Assembly (NCBI RefSeq): GCF_007745175.1 | Contig: NZ_CP036271.1 | Coordinates: forward strand, 992,001 to 1,056,000 | Direction of reading: 5' to 3' | Origin: Caulifigura coniformis | GTDB lineage: Bacteria; Planctomycetota; Planctomycetia; Planctomycetales; Planctomycetaceae | DNA length: 64,000 nt | In this document: piece after piece, positions 1 through 4,588 of the stretch | Position numbering within the stretch: position 1 is the first letter of the stretch | How the letters are laid out: each line of letters opens with the position of its first letter | The notes under the pieces: generated by a model | What the model saw: the letters and a program-made list of their open reading frames with translations, nothing else | Told to the model about the DNA's origin: nothing | The model's database searches: none | Translations under genes and position numbers: made by a program

Positions 1-2903
1 TCTCAACTCTGGAGTTGGCAAAGGAGCACGCGAGTCTCAAAGACCAATTAGCCGCAAGTGCCGATTTGAATCCGGAAGTCATGCCTTCCGGGGACAGCGC
101 CGAAGATGCGACTTGGAAACGCATTCGGAGCGGCGTTGAACTCGCCGAAAAGGTTCGCCCGCTGGTCAAGTCGCCAGATCCTGTCATCGAATCCTTTTGT
201 GGCCAGGCTGAGATCGATCCGACAACGATTCATGAGACGGCAGATCGCCTTGAGGAGACACACCAGCGATTTATTCAAGCGCTACAGCAAGCCCTGGAGG
301 TCGTGAATCTTTCTACGACGGAGGCTACCTCAGAGGAGACTCAGCGCCAGACGCTGGAATCACTCTTGGCGAGGGTTCGAGGGATTGGCAGCGGCCTCGA
401 CGAGCGCCTCGGCCGTCTCACTCCGCTGGAGAGACTTATCCGAGAGAATACCGACGTTGCCGTTGAGGATCTCCATCAGCATTCCCTAATCGTTGGGGAC
501 ATCCGCGCTGCACGTTTCCGGAGAATCGAGGCCGACGAGATTCTGACGACCCTGCAGGCTACCCGTCCGGACGAACTTGAGGCTGGTGGATTCGACGCCG
601 CGGACTGGTTGGCAGCAGCAACCGTCACGCCGATTTGCAAATCGGTTGCGACCGACCCACAGGTGCGGAATGAAGTGTCGATCGCCAGCGAAAAGATTCG
701 AGTCGCGGGAAGTCCGGAGTTTGCGGCGGCGTGGAAGTTCTTGCGTTCACTTTTTGATGTGAAGGCCAGCGTCTCCGTCGGCTTCGTCCCTTTCGAGACA
801 CCGGTCGGCGAACTCGCCGAACGACTGCAGTCGCTCATTGAGAGTGCGCCAGCCCTCGATGAGTGGTTGAAGTTTTCGCGGTGGCAGCAAGAGATGATTG
901 CAGCAGGCTTCGGCGAGGTCGTATCGGAGTTGATTCGTGGGAGTTTCTCGCCCGAAGAGGCGGTCGACGTCGTCACCGCACGATTCTACCGACAGGTGTT
1001 CGATCACCTTGCCGAGAATGATCCACTGCTGCGAGACTTCGATCTCGAAGCTCATGACCGTTTGAGAAAGCGCTTCCGTGAACTCGACGAATGGGAAGTG
1101 CGGGCAGCTGCAACCCAGATTCGGCAATACCAACTGGGACGCTCTGATCGTCCGCGGCCAGGTTGGAACATCCCCGTTACTTCGGAATTGGGGATTCTTC
1201 AGAAGGAAATCCAGAAGAAGCGACGTCACTTGCCGCTACGCAGGTTGTTTGCCGAGATTCCAGGGGTTCTTCAGCGGCTGAAGCCGTGCATCATGATGAG
1301 CCCCCTGTCGGTCAGTACCTTTCTGCAAAGTGAGACCATTCGCTTTGACTTGGTCATCTTCGATGAGGCATCTCAAGTGTTTCCATGGGATGCGATCGGA
1401 GCGATTTACCGAGGCTCTCAATTGATCGTCGCGGGGGACGAGCAACAACTTCCGCCGACCGATTTCTTTAGCCGTTCGGAAGGAGAAACGGACGACGAGA
1501 ACGAGGAAGGGGACGAGATCGGCGACTTTGGAAGCATCTTGAGCGTTTGCAAGAGCATCAACATGCCTGGGAAACGACTACGGTGGCACTACCGTAGTCG
1601 GCGCGAACCGCTCATTACTTTCTCGAATCGCCATTTTTACGAAGGCGAACTCGTTACGTTCCCAAGTGTTCGCGACGCCAGTCACGACGCGGTCACGCTA
1701 GACCTCGTTCCGGATGGCAAATGGCTCGACCAGAAAAACATCCCTGAGGCGGAGCGCATTGCCGACCTGATCATCGCTCACCATCGGAGCTCTCGGCATG
1801 CCTCGTTGGGAGTGATCGCATTCAATCGCAGCCAGCAGCGAGCGATCGAGGACATCCTATTCGAGCGGCGCAAGAAGGACCCCGAGATCGATTCTCTGCT
1901 CTCAGCAGGGCTCTCCGAACCCTTGTTCATCAAGAATCTGGAGAACGTTCAGGGAGATGAACGGGACGTCATCCTGCTGTCGATGGGGTTTGCCAGAAAT
2001 GAGGCCGGGAAGTTCAGCAAGAACTTTGGACCGCTTTCCAGGAAGGGCGGCCAAAGGCGACTAAATGTCGCCGTCACCCGTGCCCGAGAACAACTCACGT
2101 TTGTGGCATCGGTACGTGCGGCTGACATGGATCTGACTCCATCCATGAGCCTTGGTGCTCACCTCCTGAAGGCCTACCTGGAGTATGCGGAACGCGGAGT
2201 TGACTCGATGGCCAATCAAGCAACGCTCACCAATGGTCAGTCCGAATCGCCCTTTGAACAAGAGGTCGCGACGGCACTGATTGCGCGCGGTCTGGAGCCA
2301 GTGCCCCAGGTCGGGTGCGGCGGATTTCGGATCGATCTCGCACTTAAGCATCCCAAGTGGCCCGGACGCTTTTGTCTCGGCATTGAGTGCGATGGAGCGA
2401 CTTACCATTCGTCGCACACTGCTCGAGATCGTGACCGAATCCGGCAATCTGTCCTGGAGCAACTGGGCTGGCAGATCGTGCGTGTTTGGTCGACGGACTG
2501 GGTGCGGCAGCCAGAACGCCAGATTGAGAAGATTCTGAAGGCCTACGAAAAGGCGTCGGTCGTGGAGGAATGGCCACTTCCGGAGGTTGCATCAGCGTCG
2601 GCAGAGGAGGCCTCGCCCGATCTTGATTTGCAGCCGCGAATCGTCGAGCAGAAGCAACAGGCGTCACGATCGTTCGGCAGTATCGATGAAGTGTCATCCG
2701 AACAGATTCGCACTGTTCTTGCTGAGATCGTTCGTGGCGCCGGGGCCACTCCTGAAGATGATCTGATGCGGCTGGCTGCCCGACAGCTCGGTTTCGGCCG
2801 AACCGGGCGGAAGATTCGTGAACGAATCGAGGAGACATTGCACGGCGCGATCCGCTCCGGAACGTTCCAGCGAACGGATGACCGAATTGCTTTAGTCCGA
2901 TAG
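1..2903 (+). CDS. Superfamily I helicase with C-terminal Vsr-like nuclease and DUF3320 domain (Hhe-like), 3' part only
   Basis: The frame is open to the left edge, so this is the C-terminal ~965 residues of a longer protein; no Walker A motif is visible and it should lie upstream. Seen: a helical region, then the second helicase half with motif II VIFDEASQV (about residue 450), motif III AGDEQQLPPT, motif V NVQGDERDVILLSMGF and motif VI RRLNVAVTRAREQ. A Vsr-type nuclease domain follows (about 740-840), with ECDGATYH and the RDRDRIRQ...LGWQIVRVWSTDW signature. A DUF3320-like domain closes the protein (about 875-962). Family knowledge: DUF4011-helicase-Vsr proteins (Hhe) protect against phage. 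It ends 135 bases before a serine recombinase on the same strand, which fits cargo of a mobile island. The DUF4011 part is inferred, not seen. Confidence 0.88.
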   Translation, partial: STLELAKEHASLKDQLAASADLNPEVMPSGDSAEDATWKRIRSGVELAEKVRPLVKSPDPVIESFCGQAEIDPTTIHETADRLEETHQRFIQALQQALEVVNLSTTEATSEETQRQTLESLLARVRGIGSGLDERLGRLTPLERLIRENTDVAVEDLHQHSLIVGDIRAARFRRIEADEILTTLQATRPDELEAGGFDAADWLAAATVTPICKSVATDPQVRNEVSIASEKIRVAGSPEFAAAWKFLRSLFDVKASVSVGFVPFETPVGELAERLQSLIESAPALDEWLKFSRWQQEMIAAGFGEVVSELIRGSFSPEEAVDVVTARFYRQVFDHLAENDPLLRDFDLEAHDRLRKRFRELDEWEVRAAATQIRQYQLGRSDRPRPGWNIPVTSELGILQKEIQKKRRHLPLRRLFAEIPGVLQRLKPCIMMSPLSVSTFLQSETIRFDLVIFDEASQVFPWDAIGAIYRGSQLIVAGDEQQLPPTDFFSRSEGETDDENEEGDEIGDFGSILSVCKSINMPGKRLRWHYRSRREPLITFSNRHFYEGELVTFPSVRDASHDAVTLDLVPDGKWLDQKNIPEAERIADLIIAHHRSSRHASLGVIAFNRSQQRAIEDILFERRKKDPEIDSLLSAGLSEPLFIKNLENVQGDERDVILLSMGFARNEAGKFSKNFGPLSRKGGQRRLNVAVTRAREQLTFVASVRAADMDLTPSMSLGAHLLKAYLEYAERGVDSMANQATLTNGQSESPFEQEVATALIARGLEPVPQVGCGGFRIDLALKHPKWPGRFCLGIECDGATYHSSHTARDRDRIRQSVLEQLGWQIVRVWSTDWVRQPERQIEKILKAYEKASVVEEWPLPEVASASAEEASPDLDLQPRIVEQKQQASRSFGSIDEVSSEQIRTVLAEIVRGAGATPEDDLMRLAARQLGFGRTGRKIRERIEETLHGAIRSGTFQRTDDRIALVR

Positions 2904-2919
2904 CTAGGGCTGGCCGTTG

Positions 2920-4532: not shown

Positions 4533-4588
4533 ACCTGCGACCTCTACGTCCCGAACGTAGCGCTCTAGCCAAGCTGAGCTACATCCCG
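4514..4588 (-). tRNA. tRNA-Pro (anticodon CGG)
   Basis: A complete cloverleaf can be drawn on the minus strand: 7-bp acceptor CGGGATG/CATCCCG with A73, D arm GCTC/GAGC, anticodon stem CTACG/CGTAG with loop TTCGGGA (anticodon CGG, G37), and T arm GCAGG/CCTGT with loop TTCAAAT. Length is 75 without CCA, which is not encoded. Its 3' end overlaps the last codons of the convergent serine recombinase gene (4514-4532). Confidence 0.97.

Follow-up and report, generated by a model that had tools for sequence, protein, structure and literature searches.

What brings a serine recombinase gene to the very end of a tRNA gene, beside a defence-type helicase-nuclease, is the question raised by the left edge of a 64,000-nucleotide stretch of the Caulifigura coniformis genome (G000:C1:992001-1056000, in a one-contig genome of 6.76 Mb). 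This whole stretch is referred to here as the window; G and L numbers denote genomes and loci, G000 being the window's own genome. There, a recombinase reading frame enters tRNA-Pro(CGG) from the opposite strand, with its stop codon (4530-4532) inside the tRNA T-arm and an overlap of 20 bases between the two genes. Comparisons across the class point to a probable answer, namely an element whose serine integrase targets tRNA genes, whose attachment site (attP) lies inside the integrase gene itself, and which exchanges the tail of that gene on integration.

The integrase family and its tRNA targets

The presence of a large serine recombinase at the tRNA-Pro 3' end, claimed by the original prediction, is confirmed by this overlap and by the Pfam domains Resolvase, Recombinase and Zn_ribbon_recom, each above its curated cut-off. 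Residues R9, S11, D82, R83, C281 and C284 are invariant in 30 integrase sequences. An AlphaFold2 (AF2) model (mean predicted local distance difference test score, pLDDT, 80.1; predicted template modelling score, pTM, 0.41) shows the usual domains, with long helices at residues 344-391 and 397-448, and a predicted disordered end at residues 486-497, where pLDDT falls below 50. By its domains and coiled coil the protein is classified as a large serine recombinase with predicted integrase activity, and with 107.6 bits against the NCBIfam CcrB model (cut-off 900) it appears to be a relative of CcrB and not an equivalog. In its integrated form it ends in SSRDDRI-stop.

Integrase matches at E <= 1e-60 occur in 72 of 397 genomes of the class, and the 23 named contigs with a relative comprise 18 planctomycete contigs, three labelled only "bacterium", one Bacteroidales and one Acidobacteriaceae. 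No relative was recovered at 1e-30 from plasmid and phage collections; the viral contigs held a single one, which ends in a tRNA-Pro fragment, and no exact match to the attP-like pattern. Seventy-nine distinct recombinase ends were sorted by script and by eye into heuristic classes: 45 ends at an intact tRNA, 24 at a tRNA 3' fragment (some only 10-20 bases long), one at neither (L093), eight A-type recombinases (L047, counted among these, is probably a frameshifted integrase) and one on a contig too short to tell. The integrase gene runs into tRNA-Pro, -Ser or -Ala, or a 3' piece of one, in 69 of 70 ends, and the overlap with tRNA-Pro extends to a branch at 36-37% identity (L108-L112). All 45 intact targets lie on the opposite strand and include 31 tRNA-Pro (anticodons CGG 13, GGG 9, TGG 9), eight tRNA-Ser (GCT 3, CGA 3, GGA 1, TGA 1) and six tRNA-Ala (GGC 5, CGC 1). 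The final codons of the integrated integrase are thus supplied by the antisense strand of the tRNA end, and where the T-loop reads GATTTGAAC its TGA is the integrase stop codon.

Several observations concern other members of the family. A second copy in the window's genome (G000:C1:6244880-6246346, L082) is 69% identical and ends in a tRNA-Ala-like 3' fragment. At L093, L095, L096, L097, L098, L099 and L103 an A-type recombinase, 33-50% identical to that of the window, lies ~95-190 bp upstream of the integrase; most of these proteins end RTPLELFRAG-like, and the pairs recall CcrA/CcrB and DsiA/DsiB. Behind the integrases of L068, L074, L048 and L077, ~22 bases of tRNA-Pro 3' end are followed by mutually similar sequences containing words that resemble CTTGCGATTGCG and GCGCTGCATTC; a third kind of element may have its left end there. 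Two contigs of G397, C7 (L062) and C62 (L102), carry different integrases at the same tRNA-Pro(GGG) with an identical right flank as far as compared, and may represent alternative occupants in the population or a mixed assembly.

The candidate left end and its coding tail

Local alignment over the 160 kb to the left of the locus located a second, identically oriented copy of window bases 4514-4527 (14 bases, TCGGGATGACAGGA) at genome position 918259, where it is followed by CGCCGTTAGAACTTTTTTTCG, a sequence resembling the C-terminal codons of A-type recombinases. A long direct repeat of the tRNA 3' half, considered as the border of the island, was rejected for tRNA-Pro(CGG) in G000: a 29-base tRNA-end pattern with up to three mismatches found one place in the whole genome and no second copy, and a DNA search of G000 for a long tRNA 3' repeat otherwise matched only other tRNA genes. 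The second copy of the tRNA-Pro 3' end expected to the left consequently exists in a weak form, as 14 bases at a distance of 78 kb, and not as a long repeat. A remnant recombinase gene was also considered as the source of the motif at 918 kb; none was detected with five A-type proteins and the window integrase as queries (E <= 1).

In its own genome the left-end motif occurs once without mismatch, behind the tRNA 14-mer. A longer form is present in 102 of the 397 genomes, at ~175 places compared with ~20 for the reversed control (among the matches listed), and many of these lie directly behind a tRNA acceptor end, such as TCGGGGC, TCGGGAT, GCGGAGAG or GTGGAGGC. By regular expression, a Pro, Ser or Ala acceptor end precedes the motif in 43 of 71 distinct rows; the remaining matches are A-type gene ends, decayed sites or chance.

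The position of the motif relative to the integrase was evaluated with 59 integrases and 115 motif places (the places left out add no integrase-bearing contig among the matches listed). Excluding A-type ends, 11 pairs share a contig within 130 kb, and the motif lies upstream on the same strand in ten of them (eight integrases), upstream on the opposite strand in one and downstream in none. G000 and G307 contribute two places each and G340 was added by hand; without G340 and one weak G307 match, eight of nine are upstream on the same strand. The shortest distance is 12.3 kb (G340) and the longest 119.5 kb (G075). In six of eight pairs (G000, G307, two in G397, G340 and G075) the two ends carry an identical acceptor heptamer; sequence divergence between them starts with the first base past the acceptor in G075 and with the fourth in G307, suggesting that the crossover falls within the acceptor part or at its inner edge.

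Translated in the frame of the integrase, the left ends give xRTPLELFLAGVRGWEAGLRR, followed by a stop (RTPLELFLAGVRGWEAGLRR). This tail is 26-34 codons long in 41 of 50 cases, a set from which tails under 75 bases had been dropped and in which seven were picked by hand; the count of frame-0 stops is biased by the dropping of short tails. Outside the searched motif, the ratio of nonsynonymous to synonymous differences (pN/pS) is 0.52 in the integrase frame versus 1.32 and 1.49 in the other two (130 non-independent pairs), and in 18 disjoint pairs the differences at the three codon positions number 67, 47 and 95 (third position 95/209, p = 0.00018).

The same tail could be only an attP half-site, whose frame is left over from the 3' end of an earlier integrase and whose presence makes no difference to the working of the protein. 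The A-type paralogs end RTPLELFRAG, so that the motif resembles an ordinary recombinase C-terminus, and the first 23 bases were themselves the search target and may be constrained as DNA; moreover, the search for a tailed gene yielded no intact example, and five full-length integrases read on into sequence other than the tail. Codons 9-21, which lie beyond the searched motif, are nevertheless constrained in the integrase frame, and tail length is narrow, in a set from which short tails were dropped and in which seven were hand-picked; a tail that is no more than an attP half-site is a rather unlikely explanation. The apparent position of the attachment site within the integrase gene, and the coding tail at the element's opposite end, go beyond the original prediction.

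Additional evidence comes from places where an integrase 3' end runs directly into a tail. A strict pattern for such junctions matched seven places in six of the 397 genomes, and integrase end and tail are in frame at all seven. At six of them the integrase is a stub of ~30-60 residues or is not detectable at all, and the seventh lies at a contig end. These junctions are interpreted as the probable meeting points of stacked elements, of which the left-hand one no longer has its integrase, and may be likened to the cis-mobilizable islands discussed for Dehalococcoides (PMC3146451; here, as for the other papers cited, statements refer to the available portions of the text).

The architecture of the sites is consistent with this assignment. 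Counted from the G of GAC, the T-arm has GAAC starting at position 11 (44 of 45 intact tRNAs, by regular expression), and the left-end motif has it starting at 16. For the Listeria A118/LI integrase, Rutherford et al. assign the zinc-ribbon motif to 16-24 in attP and 11-19 in attB (PMC3783163), the same 5-bp shift. This agreement supports the att assignment, with the caveat that the origin of the count was inferred and that the T-arm position is common to tRNAs anyway. LI is a phage integrase, and the word tRNA is absent from the main text of that paper. The three target isotypes would follow from the fact that half of the proposed attB is the T-arm common to tRNAs. An inverted repeat of at least 8 bases is found in the last 80 bases of the integrase gene in 61 of 70 relatives; that of the window ( Table 1 ) is perhaps an attP arm or a terminator.

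The island, its cargo and its neighbours

The candidate island extends over 78 kb from attR at tRNA-Pro to the candidate left end at 918259. Among 50 genes predicted between these ends, 31 were scanned with Pfam, revealing a backbone of TrwC/MobF relaxase (NCBIfam 221.7 bits, cut-off 100), TrwB-type coupling protein, ParA and RPA-type initiator, along with matches to ArdC, a PIN protein, P-type ATPases, RND efflux proteins and a tyrosine integrase. The coupling protein was the only type IV secretion component seen in the scanned genes. Integrase and relaxase both lie between candidate attL and attR, the combination that characterizes an integrative mobilizable element (IME), and by its gene content the interval looks like an integrated mobilizable element in which the helicase-nuclease is one cargo gene. 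The island proposed by the original prediction therefore gains a candidate far end and a mobilization backbone, and the rest of its cargo, including the start of the helicase gene, does lie off the left edge of the window. G000:C1:922118-956353 encodes P-type ATPases, two RND pumps, and membrane-fusion and outer-membrane efflux proteins, a metal-resistance-like cargo set.

The whole helicase-nuclease gene (genome 988571-994903, 2110 aa, by the gene prediction of this analysis) encodes DUF4011, AAA_11/12 and MTES_1575 nuclease domains, the set shared by the PDC-S37, ProA and Hhe families. The likeness to the Hhe family, as first noted, holds for the defence-type domains and not for the family itself. 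PADLOC gave 1257.5 bits for PDC-S37, a candidate system (two stretches, best model), versus 622.3 bits for Hhe, a result that carries no cut-off, and the NCBIfam scores fall below the cut-offs of both ProA (NF058533, 1246.3 bits versus 1500) and Hhe (NF042953, 893.8 versus 2000). The protein is accordingly placed nearer PDC-S37/ProA than Hhe, with a predicted antiphage role, and the idea of an unusual integration system carrying a defence gene stands with a PDC-S37/ProA-like protein as cargo.

For a wider view of the cargo, 93 open reading frames (ORFs) were scanned, comprising the window's helicase and 92 of 166 ORFs from 40 integrase loci, leaving out A-type recombinases, one duplicate locus and most shorter ORFs. 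PDC-S37 was found in one of the 93, the window's own (PADLOC, best 25 of 53 families), and Pfam returned TraG-D_C 12 times, TrwB seven, ParB_N five and TrwC twice (best 25 of 72 families). Defence genes are no hallmark of the family within the ORFs scanned, and the recurrence of the backbone domains suggests mobilizable or conjugative elements with changing cargo. G307 has an initiator, ParA, relaxase, coupling protein and integrase in common with the island, and no homolog of the PDC-S37-like gene was detected in the 20 kb compared.

Because a Phage_integrase protein lies inside the interval, the island might have been placed by a tyrosine integrase, either this one (genome 966060) or one since lost, with the serine recombinase as a passenger. 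Fragments of tRNA-Pro broken at the anticodon loop, a break that is usual for tyrosine integrases, do occur in other genomes. No such repeat is present for tRNA-Pro(CGG) in the window's own genome, in 69 of 70 cases the serine integrase gene runs into a tRNA end or a piece of one, and the left-end motif lies on the side and strand that fit this integrase, all of which renders this origin very unlikely. Copies of the tRNA-Pro 3' half, 43-47 bases long and terminating close to the anticodon loop, recur at G002:C1:4190187, 4220536 and 4233848, at L239 and L240 (G245) and at L243 (G048); they are probably other elements, of the tyrosine-integrase kind, stacked at the same tRNA gene.

Occupancy of the site was compared in relatives. 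The congener G001, the only one searched, carries an integrase 77% identical at its tRNA-Pro(CGG), as would be expected if the region were a fixed, non-mobile chromosomal defence locus with the same genes at this tRNA in all relatives. The likeness is confined to the integrase: no other island gene was matched in the 12 kb upstream, the extent of the contig. Relaxase, coupling protein, ParA and RPA are also present, and in the genus of G304 the sequence on the 3' side of the tRNA varies strongly, so that a fixed locus is hardly credible. In that genus the right flank of tRNA-Pro(GGG) is common to nine of nine genomes (G304 included), in some of them in two pieces; a common left-side gene lies 74 kb from the tRNA in G304 versus 4-9 kb in G109, G071 and G052, and the left sides differ except for ~40 bases common to G109 and G403. 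No attL was recognised in G304, and the comparison therefore defines a hot spot and not an exact empty site. For the island itself, the regions compared, G001 included, share too little with the flanks for an empty site to be sought by synteny. In several congeners of G304 (L225-L230 and L240, tRNA-Pro GGG), unlike inverted repeats were noted by eye next to the 3' end of the tRNA, whose terminator may come from inserted elements.

Table 1. Features of the window at and around the integrase/tRNA-Pro overlap (window coordinates).
Feature	Position	Strand	Remarks
Large serine integrase ORF	3039..4532	+	497 aa; last 20 bases antisense to tRNA-Pro 3' end
tRNA-Pro(CGG)	4513..4588	-	ARAGORN; target gene, attR side
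Acceptor heptamer TCGGGAT	4514..4520	.	Common to candidate attL (genome 918259) and attR
Proposed attB right half-site GACAGGATTTGAAC in T-arm	4521..4534	+	Includes integrase stop TGA 4530-4532; GAAC at position 11, versus 16 in the left end (spacing compared with PMC3783163)
Inverted repeat AAGCCCTTCGA/TCGAAGGGCTT	4470..4499	.	Within integrase 3' end
DUF4011-helicase-nuclease gene, 3' part (PDC-S37/ProA-like)	1..2903	+	Cargo; ORF 3-2903, start left of window
Glycerophosphodiester phosphodiesterase-like gene	4872..5684	-	tRNA 5'-side flank; name from reading the protein, without family search

Proposed mechanism and related systems

At the sequence level, an integrase gene that contains attP and exchanges its tail is supported by the integrase/tRNA overlap across the family, the left-end motif behind tRNA ends and its upstream same-strand placement, the coding constraint of the tail in the integrase frame and the in-frame junctions. 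Under this scheme the crossover would take place within the acceptor-stem part of the tRNA gene or at its inner edge, the element carrying only the last few tRNA bases and rebuilding the tRNA. In the circular form the integrase would read through attP into the left-end tail, mostly 26-34 residues. Integration would leave the tail behind at attL and give the integrase a few codons antisense to the tRNA, followed by the TGA stop from the T-loop where this reads GATTTGAAC.

Several results weigh against this scheme. Among regions compared no empty site with the same two flanks was found, nor was a circle form found, and an intact integrase joined to a left-end tail was present at none of the seven junctions in the 397 genomes searched; this last absence fits a tailed form that exists only on the circle and an unimportant tail alike. 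The own tail, at 918266, diverges after TPLELF. The interval may be composite, given the tyrosine integrase at 966060 and a second att-like site at G000:C1:915206 (L010:19206), 3 kb left of the island's left end, where AAGTCGAGAG is followed by a full tail, NRTAIELFTAGIQGWDAALRRHF; perhaps 915206-918259 is a small integrase-less element. A motif lies upstream within 130 kb in only eight of 59 integrases, many contigs being short, the single opposite-strand place is that of G253, and the acceptor heptamer differs between the two ends in G089 and G113. Where the T-loop reads GATTCGAAC it contains no stop and the ORF extends further. Three further points lower confidence in the scheme, and in the switch function proposed below. 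The long contigs of G150, G071, G077, G304 and G361, and that of the second G000 copy, hold no left-end motif except A-type ends. The full-length integrases of L058, L075, L080, L098 and L105, which are among the 24 ends at a tRNA fragment, run through 10-20 tRNA-like bases into unlike, non-tail sequence, with a stop 108-144 bases after those bases, and may have other attP partners or represent off-target insertions or rearrangements. Finally, GACNGGACNCCGTTAGAAC with up to two mismatches was found in 33 of 51 chosen genomes, at 57 places among the matches listed, and its reversed control exceeds this with ~100; for that reason only close matches of GACNGGACNCCGTTAGAAC count, those with two mismatches meaning little.

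The tail may also have a function. We infer that excision to the circle restores a tailed integrase and that this tail favours integration, its loss then stabilising the integrated state. The frame across the attachment site would, in this hypothetical role, act as a state switch: the circle's tailed enzyme integrates, the host tRNA supplies a new C-terminus, and the element stays locked until another element's tailed integrase arrives. This is put forward tentatively, as a possibility on the doubtful side.

The nearest precedent is provided by the DsiB/ssrA islands of Dehalococcoides (PMC3146451, McMurdie et al. 2011), in which a CcrB-like large serine integrase likewise overlaps att with its 3' end at a tRNA-like gene. 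There, dsiB always overlaps att at the 3' end of ssrA and has no stop inside the island, and the authors suggest that full DsiB function may require the circle or a neighbouring island with the requisite 3' gene fragment. Tandem islands, integrase-less islands, a ParB-domain gene and a nearby second recombinase are found in both systems, and by eye the TTC and RKCC of the 15-bp DsiB-island motif stand at the spacing of the reversed left-end motif. DsiB targets tmRNA (ssrA), whereas all 45 intact targets here are tRNA-Pro, -Ser or -Ala; the inferred insertion is in the T-loop for DsiB and in the acceptor part here; the MobF relaxase and coupling protein are a further difference; and the 3' fragment, only suggested for DsiB, has here an identified candidate with coding constraint. 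The window's enzyme seems to be a tRNA-targeting relative of the CcrB/DsiB kind whose gene contains its own attachment site.

An attP inside the integrase gene, with integration splitting the gene, is also known from the archaeal suicidal integrases of SSV1, pTN3 and pT26-2 (PMC8371274), and the like is proposed here. Those are tyrosine recombinases divided into two large parts, whereas the loss proposed here for a serine recombinase is confined to a short tail, and self-disrupting recombinases are described in that paper as exclusively archaeal. Serine recombinases seldom use tRNA genes, as the original prediction had it: integration at tRNA or tmRNA genes is rare but known (PMC3146451, PMC3218068). 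PMC3218068 calls it rare at tRNA genes, cites phiRSM1 (Ralstonia, tRNA-Ser) and reports Mycobacterium AICEs (actinomycete integrative and conjugative elements) at tRNA-Leu. These two combine a serine recombinase with a tRNA target in other hosts, and the available text mentions no split integrase. Serine-recombinase IMEs of Firmicutes (PMC5704250) resemble the present element in having one serine recombinase, short repeats and a mobilizable character, but are described there as integrating within genes, tRNA 3' ends being ascribed to tyrosine recombinases. No report of the coding tail or of the planctomycete integrase family was found in the available text of the open-access literature searched, most subscription papers lying outside it.

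The tail is a candidate for the 3' fragment suggested by McMurdie et al., present in many genomes and with a frame, a length and a constraint that make the idea testable. The left-end motif marks the far border of some islands that lack long direct repeats. If true, the state switch would provide bacteria with a serine-type equivalent of the archaeal suicidal integrases, and would give serine integrases, enzymes used in genome engineering, an added means of controlling direction.

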